Source: Pelomonas sp. KK5
GTDB lineage: Bacteria > Pseudomonadota > Gammaproteobacteria > Burkholderiales > Burkholderiaceae_C
DNA length: 37,349 bases
NCBI RefSeq assembly: GCF_001984095.1
Contig: NZ_LYVQ01000033.1
Location: 1-37,349 of the forward strand
Direction: 5' to 3'
Below the pieces are notes generated by a model. The model saw nothing but the letters and a program-made list of their open reading frames with translations, was not told where the DNA came from and ran no database searches. Below, in pieces: positions 28,276-36,551 of the stretch (position 1 is the stretch's first letter; every line of letters begins with the position of its first letter). Position numbers and translations under genes: made by a program.

Positions 28276-28289
28276 TTGATCTAGATCAA
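28276..28289. promoter_or_regulatory. Perfect Fnr/Anr-type box
   Basis: TTGATCTAGATCAA is an exact match to the Fnr/Anr consensus TTGAT-N4-ATCAA. It lies 115 bp before a 51-residue small-protein gene in an unusually AT-rich 219-bp space. A Crp/Fnr-type regulator with the matching recognition helix is encoded at 34049-34669, but a genomic Anr/Fnr could also bind. Confidence 0.7.
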
Positions 28290-28403
28290 GAATCTGAAAA
28301 TCACTTGCTGCGACGCACAAATAACGCTTGCGACTATCACGGGTTAACCCGACACTTACGTCATCGAATCTTCACCAACCTTCAACTCTCCGGGAAAACC
28401 ATC

Positions 28404-28559
28404 ATGATCATCAGCACCCTGAATACTCCCGCCGCCAAGTCCCTGATCGCCAACATGCCGATCGTGATCCTGTTCAAGGCGGTCCGCGGCGCCTTCTTCT
28501 CGGCCCCGAAGGCCGATGCCGCGCTGCAAGGCCGCCTTCCGAGCGCTTCGTTCCGCTAA
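28404..28559 (+). CDS. Small protein of 51 residues, unknown function
   Basis: I do not recognise this small protein. It starts at the ATG at 28404; a longer in-frame start at 28305 would place 33 residues with poor codon choice on top. From 28404 on, codons end almost always in G or C, as in the real genes around it, which argues that it is coding. The product has an amphipathic or hydrophobic middle (SLIANMPIVILFKAVRGAFF) and a basic, Ala-rich tail (KADAALQGRLPSASFR). It could attach to the membrane. A perfect Fnr-type box lies 115 bp upstream. The stop codon is 9 bp from the convergent lysR stop. The ribosome site is weak (CGGGA). Confidence 0.55.
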   Translation: MIISTLNTPAAKSLIANMPIVILFKAVRGAFFSAPKADAALQGRLPSASFR

Positions 28560-28568
28560 ATCTCAGAG

Positions 28569-29492
28569 TTACTGCCGGTACGGGACGAACCGCTCGATCA
28601 GTTCCGCCCCGTCCGCCAGCAGGAACTCCTTGAACGCCTGGGCCACCGGCGCCAGGCGTTTGTTTTTCCGGTGCACGACAAACCAGTTGAGCATCAGCGG
28701 AAAACCCTGGACCTTCAGCACCTTGAGGCTGCCCGTGGCCACCTCCTGGCTGATCGTGTGGGCGGATAGAAACGCCAGGCCCATGCCGGCGATCACCGCC
28801 TGCTTGATCGTCTCGGTGCTGCGGATCTCCATCGCGATGTGGATGTCGTCCATCTGCTCGCCGAAGGCCTCGGCCATCGAGTTGCGCGTGTCCGAACCCT
28901 TCTCGCGGGCGACGAAAGGCTCGCGCTTGAGCTCCTCGAAGCGGATGCGCCGGCGCTCGGCCAGCGGGTGCGTGGCGGCGGCGACGATCACGTAAGGGTG
29001 GGGCGCGAAGGCGATCGCCTCGGTGTCGAGGTCGGTCGGCGGGCGCACCATCACGGCGAGGTCGGTCAGGTTGTCCGCGATATGGGTCAGCAGACCTTCG
29101 CGGTTATGGATCGTGAAGTTCAGCGACACGCCGGCGTGTCGCCCGGCGAATTCGACCAGCAGCCGCGGGAAGAAGTAGTCCCCGGCGCTGATCACGCCCA
29201 CATTGAGCTTGCCGCCGCTGACGCCGCGGTAGTGCGTCATCGCCTGCTCGGCCTCCTCGAACTGGGCAATGATGCCGCGGCTGATCTGCAGCAACTGCGA
29301 GCCGGCGGCGGTCAGGTAGATCTTCTTGCCGAACTGCTCGAACAGCAGGTTGCCGGCGTGCGATTCCAGCTTGCGCACCTGCGTGGAGACGGCCGGCTGG
29401 CTCAGGTGCAGTTCCTCGGCCGCGCGGGAGTAGCTGAGCAGCCGGGCGACCGATTCGAAGATTTTCAGCTGGCGGAGGGTGGCGTGCTTCAC
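28569..29492 (-). CDS. LysR family regulator, CbbR-like
   Basis: This 307-residue LysR regulator opens with MKHATLRQLKIFESVARLLS, followed by the helix-turn-helix AAEELHLSQPAVSTQVRKLE, the N-terminal form found in CbbR and its relatives. The co-inducer domain has GKLNVGVISAGDYFFPRLL and HNREGLLTHIADNLTDLAVM. The start codon is GTG at 29492. It is the last gene of the minus-strand run 110-residue protein, FAH, PanE, LysR (40 bp after PanE), so it probably controls that run. The 97-bp space before the run carries an inverted repeat (31748-31765) of possible LysR type. Confidence 0.88.
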   Translation of the reverse strand: MKHATLRQLKIFESVARLLSYSRAAEELHLSQPAVSTQVRKLESHAGNLLFEQFGKKIYLTAAGSQLLQISRGIIAQFEEAEQAMTHYRGVSGGKLNVGVISAGDYFFPRLLVEFAGRHAGVSLNFTIHNREGLLTHIADNLTDLAVMVRPPTDLDTEAIAFAPHPYVIVAAATHPLAERRRIRFEELKREPFVAREKGSDTRNSMAEAFGEQMDDIHIAMEIRSTETIKQAVIAGMGLAFLSAHTISQEVATGSLKVLKVQGFPLMLNWFVVHRKNKRLAPVAQAFKEFLLADGAELIERFVPYRQ

Positions 29493-29532
29493 CCGGCGGA
29501 TTCTGTCCGCCGGGGCGCAAAGCGCACTTGCC

Positions 29533-30549
29533 TCAGGTCAAGGGCTGCAAACTGAGCCGCGCCTTCTCCTCGCCCATCGTCTTCTCCAGCAGCTTGACCA
29601 GCGCGTAGACCGTGTCGATATGCGGCGTCGGCGTCTCGGTCAGCCGGGCCAGCTCGACGACCGAGCCCACCAGCGCGTCGATCTCCGGCGCGCGGCCCGC
29701 TTCCACGTCCTGCAGCATCGAGGTCTTGTGCTTGCCGACCTTCTCGGCCCCGGCGATGCGCTTCTCCAGCGAGACGCGGAAGGTGATGCCCAGCTTGGTG
29801 GCCACCGCCTGCGCCTCGGTCATCATCGCCGCGGCCAGTTCGCGCGAGGGGCCGTACTGGCAGATGTCGACCAGCGTCGACTGCGTGAGGCAGCTGATCG
29901 GGTTGAAGGTCAGGTTGCCCCAGAGCTTGAGCCAGATCTCGGCGCGGATGTCGTCCAGCACGGGCGCCTTGAAGCCGCCGCGGGCCAGCGCATTGGATAC
30001 CGCCTGCACCCGCTCGCTGGTCGTGCCGTCCAGCTCGCCGACCGGGAAGCGCTCGCCCTCGATATGCTGGATCACGCCGGGCCTCACCAGCTCGGAGGCC
30101 GGGTAGACGACGCAGCCGATCACGCGGTCCGAAGGCAGGTTGGCCAGCACCGTACCGCTCGGGTCGGCGCTGCGCACGACGGTGCCGGCCAGCGCGCCGC
30201 CGTGCTTGTGGAAGTACCAGTAGGGAATGCCGTTCTGCATCGGCACGATGACGCCAGTGGGCGAGAGCAGGGCGGCCGCCTTGGCCGCCACCGCCTCCAC
30301 CTGGTGCGCCTTCATCGCCAGGATGACCATGTCGAACTGGCCGGCCTGACCGGCGTAGTCGTCGCTGGCCTGCACCTGCTTCGTCGAGTGCGACACGCCC
30401 TCGGCGTCGATCAGCTCGATGCCATTGGCGCGGATCGCCTCCAGATTGGCGCCGCGCACGAAGAAGGTGACGTCCTCGCCGGCCAGCGCGAGCCGGGCGC
30501 CTACGAGTCCACCGATGGCCCCCGCGCCGATGATTGCGATCTTTTGCAT
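29533..30549 (-). CDS. PanE/ApbA-family reductase, candidate oxalyl-CoA reductase
   Basis: This 338-residue protein has an N-terminal NADPH loop IIGAGAIGGLVGARLA and the ketopantoate reductase landmarks FVRGANLEAIRANGIEL, VPMQNGIPYWYF and KLWGNLTFNPISCLTQ with the catalytic Lys and Asn. Ketopantoate reductase makes pantoate for coenzyme A. In Methylobacterium extorquens a homologue, PanE2, was reported to reduce oxalyl-CoA to glyoxylate. Here the gene lies among oxalate genes (oxc, frc, oxlT) and 2.4 kb from gcl, which uses glyoxylate, so the oxalyl-CoA reductase role is a strong inference rather than a demonstrated one. AAGGAAA precedes the ATG. The alternative is true ketopantoate reductase. 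Confidence 0.85.
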   Translation of the reverse strand: MQKIAIIGAGAIGGLVGARLALAGEDVTFFVRGANLEAIRANGIELIDAEGVSHSTKQVQASDDYAGQAGQFDMVILAMKAHQVEAVAAKAAALLSPTGVIVPMQNGIPYWYFHKHGGALAGTVVRSADPSGTVLANLPSDRVIGCVVYPASELVRPGVIQHIEGERFPVGELDGTTSERVQAVSNALARGGFKAPVLDDIRAEIWLKLWGNLTFNPISCLTQSTLVDICQYGPSRELAAAMMTEAQAVATKLGITFRVSLEKRIAGAEKVGKHKTSMLQDVEAGRAPEIDALVGSVVELARLTETPTPHIDTVYALVKLLEKTMGEEKARLSLQPLT

Positions 30550-30594
30550 GAAGTTTCCTTGGGCATAGTCAAAAAATCTTGTGTGTCGCCGACG

Positions 30595-31368
30595 CTAGAC
30601 GAAGCGGTTGCTCAGGCGGCCGATCCCTTCGATCGCCACCTCGACCAGGCTGTCCGGAATCATCGAGCCGACGCCGACCGAGGTGCCGCACAGGATCACG
30701 TCGCCTGGATACAGGGTCAGGTCTTGCGAGATCAGGCTCACCAGTCGCTGCACCGAGAAGCGCATGTCGCTGATGGGATAGTTCTGCCGCAGCTCGCCGT
30801 TGAGCGTCGTCGTCACGGTGAGGCTTGCAGGATCCAGGCCAGTGGCGACCACCGGGCCCATCGGGCAGAAGGTGTCGAAGCCCTTGGCGCGGTCCCACTG
30901 GGTGAAGGAGGCGTCGCGGTTCAGGATGTCAGCCACCGTCACGTCGTTGGCACAGGTGTAGCCGAACACATGGTCCAGCGCGTCCTCGACGGTGACGCCG
31001 GAGGCGGTCTTTCCGATCACGATGCCCAGTTCGCCCTCGAACACCACCTTGCCCTCGCAGCGCGGGCGGCGGATCGTCTGGCCGGCCGGCAGCCAGGAGT
31101 TCGGCGCCTTCATCAGGTACAGCGGCTCGGGCGGGTCGGCCAGGTTCAGCTTGGCGGCCAGCGCGTGGAAGTTGTTCCACATCGCGATGACCTTGGTCGG
31201 CTGGGTGGGCGTGAGCAGCTTGAGGCGGGCCAGGTCGTAGCGCAGGCCGGTGGGCGCGGGCTGGTCGAACATATTGCCGGCGTGCTCGTGGACGACGTCG
31301 CCGTCACCGAGGGTGCCGAAGCCGACGCGGCCATCATCCAACTCAAAACGAAGCCACTTCTTGCTCAT
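30595..31368 (-). CDS. Fumarylacetoacetate hydrolase (FAH) family protein
   Basis: This 257-residue protein has the FAH fold. The metal ligands are in FEGELGIVIG (Glu and Glu) and YTCANDVTVAD (Asp), with FDTFCPMGPVVA and YPGDVILCGTSVG further on. The family hydrolyses or decarboxylates carbon-carbon bonds in 2-oxo or diketo acids, so the substrate might be a small keto acid connected with oxalate or oxaloacetate metabolism. The start at 31368 overlaps the previous stop codon by 4 bp (ATGA), so it is translationally coupled to the 110-residue protein upstream. PanE follows after 45 bp. The exact reaction is not readable from the sequence. Confidence 0.88.
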   Translation of the reverse strand: MSKKWLRFELDDGRVGFGTLGDGDVVHEHAGNMFDQPAPTGLRYDLARLKLLTPTQPTKVIAMWNNFHALAAKLNLADPPEPLYLMKAPNSWLPAGQTIRRPRCEGKVVFEGELGIVIGKTASGVTVEDALDHVFGYTCANDVTVADILNRDASFTQWDRAKGFDTFCPMGPVVATGLDPASLTVTTTLNGELRQNYPISDMRFSVQRLVSLISQDLTLYPGDVILCGTSVGVGSMIPDSLVEVAIEGIGRLSNRFV

Positions 31369-31697
31369 GCGCCCAGCTCCCTGCCGATCAGTTGCGACCA
31401 GTCCACCGGCCGCGCGGCCAGGTCGGCGATCAGCGAATACTGGCGGCGGCAGGCCGCCTGCTTCTCGACGATCACGCGCAGCAGGAAGGCCGCGTCGTAG
31501 GCCTTCAGCAGGTGGGCCTGCTCGCGGCGCAGGTAGTGCAGCAGCCGTTCGACCGGATCCTCGCTGAAGGCGATCAGCGCCTCGTAGGTCGGGGTATCCC
31601 AATACCAGCGGAAACCCAGTTCGTAGAAGGCCGCGTTATAGGCGCGCAGTTCGAGTTCCTGCGGATTGGCCTGGAGATTCTGGAGATCGTTGTACAT
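31365..31697 (-). CDS. Unrecognised 110-residue protein of the oxalate region
   Basis: I cannot assign this protein to a family. I start it at the ATG at 31697, with GGAG 7-8 bp upstream, giving MYNDLQNLQANPQELELRAY. It is helical in appearance, with aromatic residues clustered in the middle (FYELGFRWYWDTPTYEALIA) and a charged second half (RLLHYLRREQAHLLKAYDAA), one Cys and no signal peptide or membrane segment. It is coupled to the FAH gene by an ATGA overlap, so the two proteins may form a complex or act on the same pathway. It heads the run that also contains PanE and LysR. Confidence 0.7.
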   Translation of the reverse strand: MYNDLQNLQANPQELELRAYNAAFYELGFRWYWDTPTYEALIAFSEDPVERLLHYLRREQAHLLKAYDAAFLLRVIVEKQAACRRQYSLIADLAARPVDWSQLIGRELGA

Positions 31698-31747
31698 GCC
31701 CGGCTCCTTCGCGTTGTGTTGCGTTGAGCAAAATGTAGAGAGCCGGG

Positions 31748-32321: not shown

Positions 32322-32335
32322 TTGCTTCGGATCAA
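32322..32335. promoter_or_regulatory. Fnr-like box upstream of oxlT
   Basis: TTGCTTCGGATCAA fits TTGAT-N4-ATCAA at 9 of 10 defined positions. It lies 165 bp before the oxlT start, in the 297-bp space divergent from osmC. The rest of that space (to 32499) shows no other clear signal except the ribosome site AAAGGA before oxlT. Confidence 0.5.
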
Positions 32336-32499: not shown

Positions 32500-33801
32500 A
32501 TGATTCGACCGCCCGTAGCCGTCGCCACGGCCTCAGACACCCACGCGGCGCCCGACGCCACCCAGCACACCAGCAGCGCCTATCGATGGGGCCAGCTCTT
32601 GCTGGGCATCCTGTGCATGGCGATGATCGCCAACCTGCAATACGGCTGGACGCTGTTCGTCAACCCGATCTCCGAGAAATACGGCTGGAGCCGCGCCGCC
32701 ATCCAGGTGGCCTTCACGATCTTCGTGCTCACTGAAACCTGGCTCGTGCCGATCGAGGGCTACCTGGTCGACCGCTTCGGCCCGCGCCCGGTGGTGATGG
32801 GCGGCGGCATCCTCTGCGGTATCGGGTGGGCGATGAACTCGGTGGCCGACACGCTGCCGATGCTGTACTTCGCTGCCGCCGTCGCCGGTGTGGGCGCTGG
32901 TGCGGTCTACGGCACCTGCGTGGGCAATGCGCTGAAGTGGTTCCCCGATCGCCGCGGCCTTGCCGCCGGCCTGACGGCGGCCGGCTTCGGGGCGGGCTCG
33001 GCGCTGACCATCATCCCGATCTCCAACTTCATCAAGTCCAACGGCTACCAGGATGCCTTCCTGTACTTCGGCATCGGCCAGGGCCTGATCGTGTTCCTGG
33101 CCTCCTGGGCCCTGAGCCGCGCGCCGGAGACGCTGAAGAAGCTGGCCCCGAGCACGCTGCAGCAGAGCAAGCGCAGCTACACGCCGGGCGAGGTTGCCAA
33201 GACGCCGGTGTTCTGGGTCATGTACGCCATGTTCGTGATGGTGGCTGCCGGCGGCCTGATGGCCACCGCGCAGCTCGGCCCGATCGCCAAGGACTTCAAG
33301 ATCGACGGTGTGCCGGTCAACATCATGGGCCTGGTGCTGCCGGCGCTGACCTTCGCGCTGGCCATCGACCGGGTGCTGAACGGCCTGACGCGTCCCTTCT
33401 TCGGCTGGGTGTCCGACCAGATCGGCCGCGAGCTGACGATGTTCATCGCCTTCGCCATCGAATCGGTGGGCATCCTGGCGCTGTACAAGTTCGGCCAGAA
33501 CCCGGTGGCCTTCGTGATCCTGACCGGCATCGTGTTCTTCGCCTGGGGCGAGATCTACAGCCTGTTCCCGTCCACCTGCGCCGACACCTTCGGCTCCAAG
33601 TACGCGGCCTCCAACGCCGGCATGCTGTACACCGCGAAGGGCACGGCCTCGCTGCTGGTTCCGCTCTCCAGCGTGCTGGCCGCCAGCACCGGCAGCTGGC
33701 ACTCGGTGTTCATCGTGGCCAGCGTGATGAACGCAGCCGCCGCGTTGATGGCTTGGTTCGTGTTGCGCCCGATGCGCAAGGCGCAAATGGAAAAATCGTG
33801 A
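32500..33801 (+). CDS. oxlT: Oxalate/formate antiporter, MFS family
   Basis: OxlT exchanges extracellular oxalate for intracellular formate in the inner membrane. The 433-residue protein has 12 predicted helices. Landmarks are LQYGWTLFVNPISEKYGWSR in the first helix, GAVYGTCVGNALKWFPDRRG in the loop region, GLTRPFFGWVSDQIGREL and a Lys (residue 380) in NAGMLYTAKGTASLL, which matches the helix-11 Lys shown to bind oxalate in Oxalobacter OxlT. I start it at the ATG at 32500, just after AAAGGA. A longer in-frame start 138 bp upstream would add an Arg/Gly-rich stretch unlike OxlT. It is isolated on the plus strand between osmC (divergent) and the Crp/Fnr gene (convergent). Confidence 0.93.
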   Translation: MIRPPVAVATASDTHAAPDATQHTSSAYRWGQLLLGILCMAMIANLQYGWTLFVNPISEKYGWSRAAIQVAFTIFVLTETWLVPIEGYLVDRFGPRPVVMGGGILCGIGWAMNSVADTLPMLYFAAAVAGVGAGAVYGTCVGNALKWFPDRRGLAAGLTAAGFGAGSALTIIPISNFIKSNGYQDAFLYFGIGQGLIVFLASWALSRAPETLKKLAPSTLQQSKRSYTPGEVAKTPVFWVMYAMFVMVAAGGLMATAQLGPIAKDFKIDGVPVNIMGLVLPALTFALAIDRVLNGLTRPFFGWVSDQIGRELTMFIAFAIESVGILALYKFGQNPVAFVILTGIVFFAWGEIYSLFPSTCADTFGSKYAASNAGMLYTAKGTASLLVPLSSVLAASTGSWHSVFIVASVMNAAAALMAWFVLRPMRKAQMEKS

Positions 33802-34048: not shown

Positions 34049-34669
34049 TCAAGGCGGATTCGCGATCTTCCCGCTATGGCGCAGCCGGCTCAGCGTTTCC
34101 GCCGACAGGTTCAGGTAGGAGGCCAACTCCTTCTGCGGAATGCGGTCCACCAGGTCCGCATGCTTGCGCAGGAAGCGCTGCACGCGGCCCGGCGCGTCCA
34201 GCAGGTGCAGCGTGATCGTGTGGGCCATGATGTCGCTCATTACCTTCATCACGTCGTACTCGAAGCGCTGCTTGTGCTCGGGGCGGGCGTCGAGGAAGCT
34301 GCCCCAGTCCTTCATCGGCAGGCTGGCCACGCGGGCCTTGCTGACGCCGACGATGCCGTAAGGCGTGGGCGTGCCCAGGCGCCAGGCGGCGTAGACCGTC
34401 TCCATGTCGCGCTCGCAGGCGAAGCGCAGGATCATCTCCTTGCCTTCGGGGTTCGAGACGACGCGCTTGAGCACGCCGTCGACGATGAAGTACTGCGCCA
34501 TCTCCCGCGCGCCCTGCTGCTGCAGGAATTCGCCCTTGCCGCTGTCGGTGATCAGCAACTGGGCTTCCAGCTCCTTCAGATCCTCGTCGGTAAGCCCGGC
34601 CAAGGCGACGTTCTGCCTCAGCTGCAGGCGGATCACGTTGCGCTCCGGATGATTCACCAGGAATGTCAT
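34049..34669 (-). CDS. Crp/Fnr family regulator without an iron-sulfur cysteine cluster
   Basis: This 206-residue regulator has an N-terminal cyclic-nucleotide-binding-type fold (LRQNVALAGLTDEDLKELEA, QYFIVDGVLKRVV, GKEMILRFACERDMETVYA), a dimer helix and a C-terminal helix-turn-helix. The recognition helix LSAETLSRLR carries Glu191, Ser194 and Arg195 in the same E-x-x-S-R order that Fnr uses to read TTGAT. It has one Cys and none of the N-terminal Cys cluster that holds the oxygen-sensing iron-sulfur centre of Fnr. I start it at the ATG at 34669 because a start further out would place the box at 34700-34713 inside the gene. It is divergent from oxc and probably controls it; the signal is unknown. 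Confidence 0.88.
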   Translation of the reverse strand: MTFLVNHPERNVIRLQLRQNVALAGLTDEDLKELEAQLLITDSGKGEFLQQQGAREMAQYFIVDGVLKRVVSNPEGKEMILRFACERDMETVYAAWRLGTPTPYGIVGVSKARVASLPMKDWGSFLDARPEHKQRFEYDVMKVMSDIMAHTITLHLLDAPGRVQRFLRKHADLVDRIPQKELASYLNLSAETLSRLRHSGKIANPP

Positions 34670-34699
34670 TGCAGGGTTTGCCTCTGTTTTTTCGGAATC

Positions 34700-34713
34700 T
34701 TGACTGGCGTCAA
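34700..34713. promoter_or_regulatory. Fnr-like box between the Crp/Fnr gene and oxc
   Basis: TTGACTGGCGTCAA is a symmetrical TTG-N8-CAA box (TTGAC/GTCAA). It is 31 bp before the regulator ATG and 84 bp before the oxc start, a fitting place for activation of oxc and autoregulation. Confidence 0.6.
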
Positions 34714-34796
34714 CCGCCTCCGTTCCTCCCGCAATCATAGTCACCACACGCACTCGGTGAGAGCCGAGGGGTGTTGTCAAGAACAAGGAGAGAGAC

Positions 34797-36551
34797 TTGT
34801 CTACCGTACTCGAATCCAAGCCGGTCGCTCAGGCCGCAACGCAGTCCGCCAATGAGCCCGAACTGACCGACGGCTTCCATCTCGTCATCGACGCGCTGAA
34901 GCTCAACGGCCTGGACACCATCTACGGCCTGGTGGGCATTCCCATCACCGACCTGGCCCGCCTGGCCCAGGCCGAGGGCATGCGCTTCATCGGCTTCCGC
35001 CATGAGCAGCACGCCGGCAACGCCGCCGCCATCGCCGGCTACATGACCCAGAAGCCCGGCATCTGCCTGACGGTGTCCGCCCCCGGCTTCCTGAACGGCC
35101 TGACCGCGCTGGCCAACGCCACCACCAACTGCTTCCCGATGATCCTGATCTCCGGCTCCAGCGAGCGCGAGATCGTCGACCTGCAGCAGGGTGACTATGA
35201 GGAGATGGACCAACTGGCCATCGCCCGCCCGCACTGCAAGGCTGCCTTCCGCGTGCTGCATGCCGAGGACATCGGCGTCGGCTTCGCCCGCGCCATCCGC
35301 GCCGCCGTCTCGGGCCGCCCGGGCGGCGTCTACCTGGACCTGCCGGCCAAGCTGCTCGCGCAGACGATGGACGCGGCCAAGGGCAAGGCCTCGCTGATCA
35401 AGGTCGTGGACCCGGCTCCGCGCCAGCTGCCCGCGCCCGACACGGTCGCCAAGGCCCTGGACGTGCTGAAGAACGCCAAGCGCCCGCTGATCCTGCTGGG
35501 CAAGGGCGCCGCTTACGCGCAGGCGGATGAAGACATCCGCGCGCTGGTCGAGAAGACCGGCATCCCCTACCTGCCGATGTCCATGGCCAAGGGCCTGCTG
35601 CCCGACACGCACGCGCAGTCGGCTTCCGCCGCCCGCTCCTACGTGCTGGCCGAGGCCGACGTGGTGATGCTGGTCGGCGCGCGGCTGAACTGGCTGCTCT
35701 CGCACGGCAAGGGCAAGACCTGGGGCCAGGAGAAGGGCGCCAAGAAGTTCATCCAGATCGACATCTCGCCGACCGAGATCGACAGCAACGTGCCGATCGA
35801 GGCCCCGCTGATCGGCGATATCGCCTCCTGCGTCGGTGAACTGCTGAAGGGCGTGGACGCCAGCTTCCCGAAGCCGCCGGCCGACTGGCTCGCCAACATC
35901 GCCTCGCGCAAGGACAAGAACCTGACCTCGATGGCCGCCAAGCTGGCGCAGAACCCCAGCCCGATGAACTTCCACAGCGCCTTGGGCGCCATCAAGGAAG
36001 TGCTGAAGGACCATCCGGACATCAACCTGGTCAACGAAGGCGCCAACACGCTGGACTTCGCCCGCTCGATCATCGACCAGTACCAGCCCCGCAAGCGTTT
36101 CGATTCGGGCACCTGGGGGATCATGGGCATCGGCATGGGCTACTCGATCGGCGCTGCCGTCACCAGCGGCAAGCCGGTCGTCGCGATCGAGGGCGACAGC
36201 GCCTTCGGCTTCAGCGGCATGGAGCTGGAAACGATCTGCCGCTATGACCTGCCGGTCACGACGATCATCTTCAACAACAACGGCGTCTACCGCGGCACCG
36301 ACGTGAACCCCACCGGCGGCAAGGACGTGGCCCCGACGGTCTTCGTCAAGGACGCCCGCTACGACAAGATGATCGAGGCCTTCGGCGGCGTGGGCTACCA
36401 CGTGACGACGCCGGAAGAGCTGACGGCCGCGCTGAAGGAATCGATCGCCGCCGGCAAGCCGGCCCTGATCAATGCGGTCATCGACGAGGCTGCGGGCACC
36501 GAAAGCGGGCGCCTGACCAACCTCAATCCGCAAAGCGGCAAGACGAAGTAA
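34797..36551 (+). CDS. oxc: Oxalyl-CoA decarboxylase
   Basis: Oxc removes carbon dioxide from oxalyl-CoA to give formyl-CoA in the cytoplasm, with thiamine diphosphate and magnesium. The start is a TTG at 34797, six bases after AAGGAG; no upstream ATG fits. The 584-residue protein has the cofactor-activating Glu70 in [11 protein letters not shown], the magnesium/thiamine motif from GDS at 466-468 to [19 protein letters not shown] in the central domain, and the C-terminal stretch [12 protein letters not shown]. The family is about 565-580 long, so the N-terminus carries a few extra residues. It precedes frc by 33 bp, with its own ribosome site (AAGGAG). Confidence 0.96.

Follow-up and report, generated by a model that had tools for sequence, protein, structure and literature searches.

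A predicted oxalate regulon under a Crp/Fnr-type protein without iron-sulfur cysteines in Pelomonas sp. KK5 and its relatives

Here, we describe what is very probably a dedicated Crp/Fnr activator of oxalate catabolism with a conserved operator, class II promoter geometry and a pocket that may respond to an anion, encoded in a 37,349-nucleotide stretch of DNA from Pelomonas sp. KK5 (the window, by which we mean the whole stretch analyzed). An oxalate regulon under this cluster-less protein, predicted to comprise oxc and, via a weak site with perfect orthologues, oxlT, is strongly supported. The first-pass annotation of the window already contained an oxc/oxlT regulon, but missed the spacing between operator and -10 element, the target tctC in relatives, the loss of the cAMP contacts and the missing wing of the DNA-binding domain. 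The features that carry the argument are as follows.

34052-34669, minus strand: Crp/Fnr-type regulator of 206 aa, assigned from its family of relatives and its AlphaFold2 fold; stop codon at 34049-34051
34797-36551, plus strand: oxc, oxalyl-CoA decarboxylase, above the curated cut-offs of NF006721 and TIGR03254
36585-37349, plus strand: frc, formyl-CoA transferase (NF003809, 502.7 bits against a cut-off of 442)
32500-33801, plus strand: oxlT, oxalate/formate antiporter of the MFS type (TIGR04259, 648.9 bits against a cut-off of 335)
34700-34713, no strand assigned: predicted operator TTGACTGGCGTCAA in the regulator-oxc gap, with an equivalent box in 75/76 divergent loci
34736-34741, plus strand: CATAGT, the -10-like hexamer for oxc, which begins 29.5 bp away from the center of the box
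32322-32335, plus strand: weak candidate operator TTGCTTCGGATCAA before oxlT, aligned with perfect boxes in loci L006 and L106
32358-32363, plus strand: -10-like hexamer GACAGT before oxlT, with conserved counterparts in L006 and L106

The end of oxlT lies about 250 bp from the stop codon of the regulator, tail to tail. In most relatives where both genes are visible frc is directly 3' of oxc, and the two are presumed to form one operon in the window, where frc runs off the end; its score against TIGR03253 (478.8 bits) falls below the cut-off of 504.2 because the gene is cut there.

A scan of GTDB genomes returned 61 relatives of the regulator at 55-75% identity, with source names of Variovorax, other Burkholderiales or Betaproteobacteria and unclassified Proteobacteria, and one metagenome-assembled genome labeled Lysobacter. 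Counting its own genome each time, the family occurred in 26 of 150 genomes at the family level, 54 of 300 at the order level and 8 of 398 at the phylum level, the last every one from the same order. We regard the family as sharply bounded because order-level matches had E values of 4e-110 to 2e-97 and no further genome matched at the limit of 1e-25. With two exact duplicates dropped, 85 unique loci were compared, the window counted. Loci from 34 of the 54 order-level genomes were considered, and the 31 loci added later (flanks of about 1.5 kb) are the new ones minus four already seen and the window's own (L144). A divergent oxc stands beside the regulator in 76 of the 85, a set that leaves out L018, where the box is present but the thiamine diphosphate (ThDP) enzyme next door is 26% identical to Oxc.

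Several variations on this neighborhood were seen in passing. In eight loci (L018, L143, L154, L157 and L159-L162) regulator and box face a different ThDP enzyme that has 23-26% identity to Oxc; for the three scanned, the best models, all below cut-off, were of the acetolactate-synthase-like and 2-hydroxyacyl-CoA lyase types, and oxlT or frc is visible in some of these loci. The enzyme is perhaps an unrelated replacement for oxalyl-CoA decarboxylase. Second paralogues of the regulator, about 45% identical and with the helix ETLCR instead of ETLSR, occur near oxlT in L034 (6748-7371) and L105 (13807-14433), the latter also near tctC and with a strict box of its own. A further paralogue frame (L106, 881-1468, minus strand), with its middle replaced by a CheY-like receiver piece, is possibly an assembly chimera, which we suspect because its contig is small and carries a frameshifted oxlT. 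Genes for a TauE/SafE-type transporter and a formyl transferase-like protein are often found inside the oxalate cluster (L058, 8292-9104; L056, 3152-3949; and others). A cluster of LysR, PanE-like and FAH-hydrolase genes with a small ORF, ORF31365 (window 28569-31700), likewise recurs near oxalate genes, whole or in part, in L104 (equal to L006), L112, L121 and L122, and is mostly box-less.

The regulator is tied to these genes by its predicted operator. Of the 76 unique loci in which oxc is divergent, 75 carry a strict box, TTGAY-N4-RTCAA, between regulator and oxc; L035, the one exception, has TTGACCTCGGTCAT and, at the proper spacing, a -10. The consensus is TTGACC-N2-GGTCAA; 10 of 84 half-sites have T rather than C at their fifth position. 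Among the first 62 loci, 53 had the box within 200 bp upstream, compared to a mean of 0.03 and a maximum of 1 in shuffles. When the 350 bp before each start codon were examined, strict boxes preceded oxc in 75 of 76 rows (a slightly different set from the 76 divergent loci) and tctC in 59 of 60. The rows behind these counts are not independent because many Variovorax loci are near-duplicates; the 75 and 59 condense to 42 and 35 representatives, respectively. The tctC and tctB genes of relatives match Pfam TctC and TctB; tctC is the uptake gene of many relatives, and we count it as an independent target because it usually lies several kilobases from oxc. In the Pelomonas genome itself, a search for the Variovorax-type tctC gave no match at E<=1e-60, a weak result since it ran without a positive control. 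The internal controls tctB (0/56) and ORF31365 (0/36) had no strict box upstream, and counts were also low for LysR (0/5, the window's own counted), FAH (0/4), panE (1/8), the TauE-type gene (2/11) and the formyl-transferase-like gene (1/20). The low count for frc (4/126) arises because frc mostly follows oxc. Upstream of oxlT, 3 of 15 regions held a strict box and 5 of 15 passed the matrix cut-off.

Comparison shows this putative operator staying with the promoters of oxc or frc through rearrangement. Among the 31 later loci, 22 have the strict box upstream of the regulator; in five of the nine misses (L147-L150 and L176) oxc lies downstream of the regulator with the box directly before oxc, and in the other four (L146, L155, L164 and L178) no strict box is in view, in a stretch that excludes any oxc promoter. 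Where oxc and frc are apart (L166 and L177), each has its own box, and the usual spacing separates this from TATAGT or TATGAT. No strict box accompanies the regulator itself in the eight deep loci L050-L057. Of these, L050 has a nondivergent oxc preceded by two boxes, L051, L053, L056 and L057 have a box before frc, and the compared DNA of L052, L054 and L055 holds no strict box.

Class II activators bind a site centered about 41.5 bp upstream of the transcription start, next to the -10 element. On the oxc side, across the 42 representatives, the start of a -10-like hexamer is 29.5-30.5 bp away from the box center, and the mean TATAAT match reaches 3.02 at 30.5 bp, above the largest of 500 shuffle maxima (1.93); on the tctC side the peak has the same offset (2.23 against a shuffle maximum of 1.91, 35 representatives). 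This spacing would put the box near -41.5, the geometry expected of a class II activator, and because the box sits at that position control is likely to be activation of oxc and the uptake genes. The regulator side has a peak of its own (2.17 at 14.5 bp, above its shuffle maximum of 1.77), which we ascribe to a conserved TTTC..AAAA beside the box, too close for a class II -10. In a joint model of box and -10, trained on 76 promoters with the window excluded, the oxc site scores higher than any other window position on either strand (24.6, against a training 5% quantile of 22.4).

All three TTG-N8-CAA sites reported in the first-pass annotation are present, at 34700, 32322 and 28276. The bare pattern is common, with 11 occurrences in the window where 3.7 are expected and 8 of the 11 elsewhere than these sites, whereas the strict box occurs twice (28276 and 34700). 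Scored with the box matrix, 28276, 34700 and 32322 reach 22.8, 17.8 and 10.6 and rank 1, 2 and 5 in the window, against a range of 14.7-34.1 and a median of 28.0 for the training boxes. At the level of sequence, footprinting confirms the predicted oxc box at 34700, though it is low-scoring within the set. The site at 32322 is taken as a weakened but genuine oxlT operator. Relatives have perfect boxes before oxlT (TTGACCCGGGTCAA in L006 and TTGACTCGGGTCAA in L106), and the oxlT promoters of the window, L006 and L106 have in common GAGAA directly behind the box and GACAGTG at the same spacing. Its matrix score lies below that of every training box (10.6 against a minimum of 14.7), and its joint score of 9.7, which ranks seventh, lies under the training minimum of 11.8; scores of 9.7 or higher turned up in 2 of 134 upstream regions used as controls and in 42 of 2,000 random window stretches. 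Three further features belong to the remaining candidates in the window.

28276-28289, plus strand: perfect Fnr-type box TTGATCTAGATCAA, the best window box by sequence, its role uncorroborated
28404-28559, plus strand: orphan ORF of 51 aa behind this box, of doubtful gene status
29528-29541, minus strand: second-ranked candidate of the joint model (score 18.4), before the LysR gene at 28569-29492

The proposed small-protein gene behind 28276 was rejected as a regulon member. Among 150 genomes of the family the ORF was found in its own genome only (1/150), it has no Pfam match, and no -10 at the family spacing was found from the box on either strand, the joint model ranking the site fifth and sixth. 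Thus, of the local regulon claimed earlier, the oxc part stands firmly and the oxlT part stands through its orthologous weak site, whereas the small-protein gene does not. The stretch 28276-28570 is, in itself, an intergenic region that contains both the orphan ORF and the perfect Fnr-type box; it could hold an unannotated small RNA, and no Rfam family matched in the window at gathering scores. The candidate at 29528 was likewise rejected as a regulon site of the LysR gene, given the absence of strict boxes upstream of that gene in all five loci, and is probably a chance match.

A genome-wide scan for the boxes, a check the first-pass annotation had suggested, gave a divided answer. The strict box is unremarkable by itself (12 sites against 10 in a reversed control), so that conservation makes the case, while the perfect form TTGAT-N4-ATCAA occurred five times against none, 28276 being one of the five. 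Two of the 12 strict sites lie in the window; the 10 outside were rejected as regulon members, since all but one overlap mechanically listed ORFs, some of which are surely non-genes. The exception, C118:3055, lies between convergent ORFs and resembles a terminator stem. One of the others, TTGATCGGCATCAA at C117:18113 (L096:3114), is the only outside strict site with a well-spaced -10 towards a gene (TAGAAT); it stands about 210 bp upstream of an ORF for a TonB-dependent siderophore receptor (TIGR01783), and may be an extra target or a chance occurrence.

The protein has the FNR-type E-x-x-S-R recognition helix without the FNR-type sensor. The translated coding sequence bears out the earlier description of an E-T-x-S-R helix with Glu191, Ser194 and Arg195 (motif SAETLSRL) and of a single cysteine, C85. 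In the alignment of 58 relatives, which takes in the chimera-like L106:881-1468 and the two second paralogues, E191 and R195 are present in 58/58 and S194 in 55/58, with C in the other three. The FNR-type set of cysteine ligands for a 4Fe-4S cluster is absent, as the one cysteine is not at a conserved position. The commonest cysteine position among those looked at, 108, is C in 28/58 and G in the window protein, and 6/58 have no cysteine at all, which disfavors a 4Fe-4S cluster as the input and supports the earlier suggestion that the signal is another. The FNR model NF008365 did not match the window protein up to an E value of 0.01 and matched 3 of the 58 family members (best E value, 0.0002); Pfam PF00027 and PF13545 match the regulator below their cut-offs only.

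An AlphaFold2 model built from 37 sequences (pLDDT 92.2, pTM 0.86) has a CNB-type beta roll, a long helix at 130-156 and a helix-turn-helix at 179-185/190-198, and so shows the beta roll, long dimer helix and C-terminal helix-turn-helix of the Crp/Fnr superfamily. Its closest folds, at a Z of about 20, are cAMP-bound GlxR, MtbCRP and the A. fischeri holo-FNR. A wing is usual, not universal, in this superfamily. We judge it missing here because the model has no strand past residue 118, and the chain stops just past the recognition helix at 190-198. In CRP, cAMP is contacted by G71, E72, R82, S83, T127 and S128. In an ungapped alignment these correspond to T91, V92, T102, P103, I147 and M148 of the regulator, so that all six are replaced, including the phosphate-binding arginine (T102) and the glycine (T91); V92 is found in the window protein alone, and 54/58 have S at that position. 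Two other arginines, R69 (58/58) and R82 (57/58), align with V49 and S62 of CRP, positions that presumably lie in the cyclic nucleotide cavity. R69, R82, T91, Y93, P103 and Y104 are near-invariant in the family, as are H7 (58/58), H150 (57/58) and H155 (56/58), and the acids E78 (58/58) and E86 are conserved near the two arginines. The cassette Arg and Gly and two C-helix cAMP contacts are also given, numbered one higher, in the excerpted text of PMC12937710.

We propose the following mechanism. Comparison places the regulator together with, and usually divergent from, oxc, and places its putative operator about 30 bp upstream of the -10 of oxc and, in relatives, of that of tctC, frc or oxlT. 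A dimer would read the two half-sites with its E-T-x-S-R helices and would touch RNA polymerase as a class II activator; as the same box lies close to the start of the regulator gene, autoregulation is possible. The rebuilt pocket with R69 and R82 may bind an anion of the pathway (oxalate, oxalyl-CoA or formyl-CoA), an oxalate-pathway anion being our leading guess for the inducer, and oxalate might thereby turn on its own uptake and breakdown. The fuller form of this proposal, in which a wing-less family senses oxalate or its CoA thioesters directly through a two-arginine pocket and, as a class II activator, recruits whatever uptake system the host has (TctCBA or OxlT), we hold tentatively, as somewhat short of probable. 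Less likely than this, in our estimate, is a nonallosteric protein of the FixK2 type that binds DNA constitutively, its R69 and R82 salt-bridged to nearby acids and oxalate control exerted through protein amount or another regulator. Several family members are described as taking their DNA-binding form without ligand, with salt bridges able to fill a polar cavity (PMC12937710, excerpt), FixK2 itself (4i2o) is a structural neighbor at Z 17.8, and E78 and E86 would be suitable partners close by; against this, near-invariance across R69, R82, T91, Y93, P103 and Y104 exceeds what a filler would seem to need, and a search of the window's genes and a few from relatives turned up no other regulator consistently at the locus.

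A gas or redox sensor, dependent on haem or NO like DNR or HcpR and coupling oxalate use to respiration, seems improbable. The box is the same as that of delta-proteobacterial HcpR, TTGACnnnnGTCAA, and close to that of DNR (PMC1274295, excerpt), DNR is among the sequence matches (E value, 2.8e-9) and histidines 7, 150 and 155 are nearly invariant; yet the neighboring genes found are oxalate genes, and cysteine is unconserved, position 108 included. It is very improbable that the boxes are bound instead by a genomic Fnr/Anr or another Crp paralogue of the ExxSR type, as might be imagined from the perfect Fnr-type site at 28276 and from one paralogue in the same genome (L125, C167) whose REMVSR helix might, in theory, recognize TTGA sites. 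Searched with NF008365, the genome (99.67% complete) had no match at E<=1e-10 in a run whose E. coli positive control matched, which makes Anr/Fnr an unlikely rival; by eye, none of the best 12 of 18 PF13545 matches combines Fnr cysteines with an ExxSR helix, and throughout the order the box goes with the locus of the regulator. That the three boxes are mere chance matches in a GC-rich genome has next to no probability as a general account, despite the excess of the bare pattern in 37 kb and the unremarkable genome-wide count of the strict one, since the 75/76 conservation and fixed -10 spacing exclude it for the oxc box and orthology to perfect boxes makes it unlikely for the oxlT box; it perhaps holds for 28276. 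The dedicated activator, possibly anion-responsive, remains our preferred reading.

Oxalate use matters for soil carbon. It also matters for root colonization (PMC3886118, excerpt). The excerpted texts of the oxalotrophy papers PMC12927642, PMC10192776, PMC3886118 and PMC9476978 do not contain the term regulator, those of PMC5996035 and PMC8305402 mention oxc and frc without a tie to a regulator, and the matches listed from open-license PMC literature include no Crp/Fnr-type regulator of oxalate genes. Searches of open-license papers turned up no regulator of oxc or frc in these bacteria. The gene, operator, promoter geometry and short regulon presented here are directly testable. The system may also be a switch that responds to oxalate, with potential use as a biosensor, and it exemplifies how a single operator can track its genes through rearrangement and transporter exchange.

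Compared to known systems, the regulator resembles FNR and ANR in fold (holo-FNR of A. fischeri), in its E-x-x-S-R helix and in its TTGA half-sites, but lacks the cysteine set and the wing strands, prefers TTGAC and is linked to oxalate genes. With HcpR of delta-proteobacteria and cyanobacteria it shares the operator TTGACnnnnGTCAA (PMC1274295, excerpt), the family boxes conforming to TTGAC-N4-GTCAA, and HcpR is also divergent from its target in two cyanobacteria (PMC1274295, excerpt); HcpR sites, however, precede hcp, frdX or norB (PMC1274295, excerpt), whereas those of the regulator precede oxc, frc, tctC and oxlT. NtcA is a Crp/Fnr activator whose former cAMP site reads a small dicarboxylate by means of arginines (PMC12937710, excerpt), and the regulator may work in the same way, although NtcA binds 2-oxoglutarate and has retained both the Arg and the Gly of the cassette (PMC12937710, excerpt), while the regulator has T at these two positions. 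The best PDB sequence match is 3dn7, a 'cyclic nucleotide binding regulatory protein' (E value, 5.9e-17). We take it to come from Cytophaga, and it appears to be wing-less too, because it has 194 residues and the alignment ends three residues before its end; in contrast to the regulator, it has L in place of R69, Q in place of R82 and E-Y-L-S-E instead of E-T-L-S-R. Operator, fold and helix are of known kinds, and it is its targets, its missing wing and its lost sensor residues that set the regulator apart from HcpR and Fnr.
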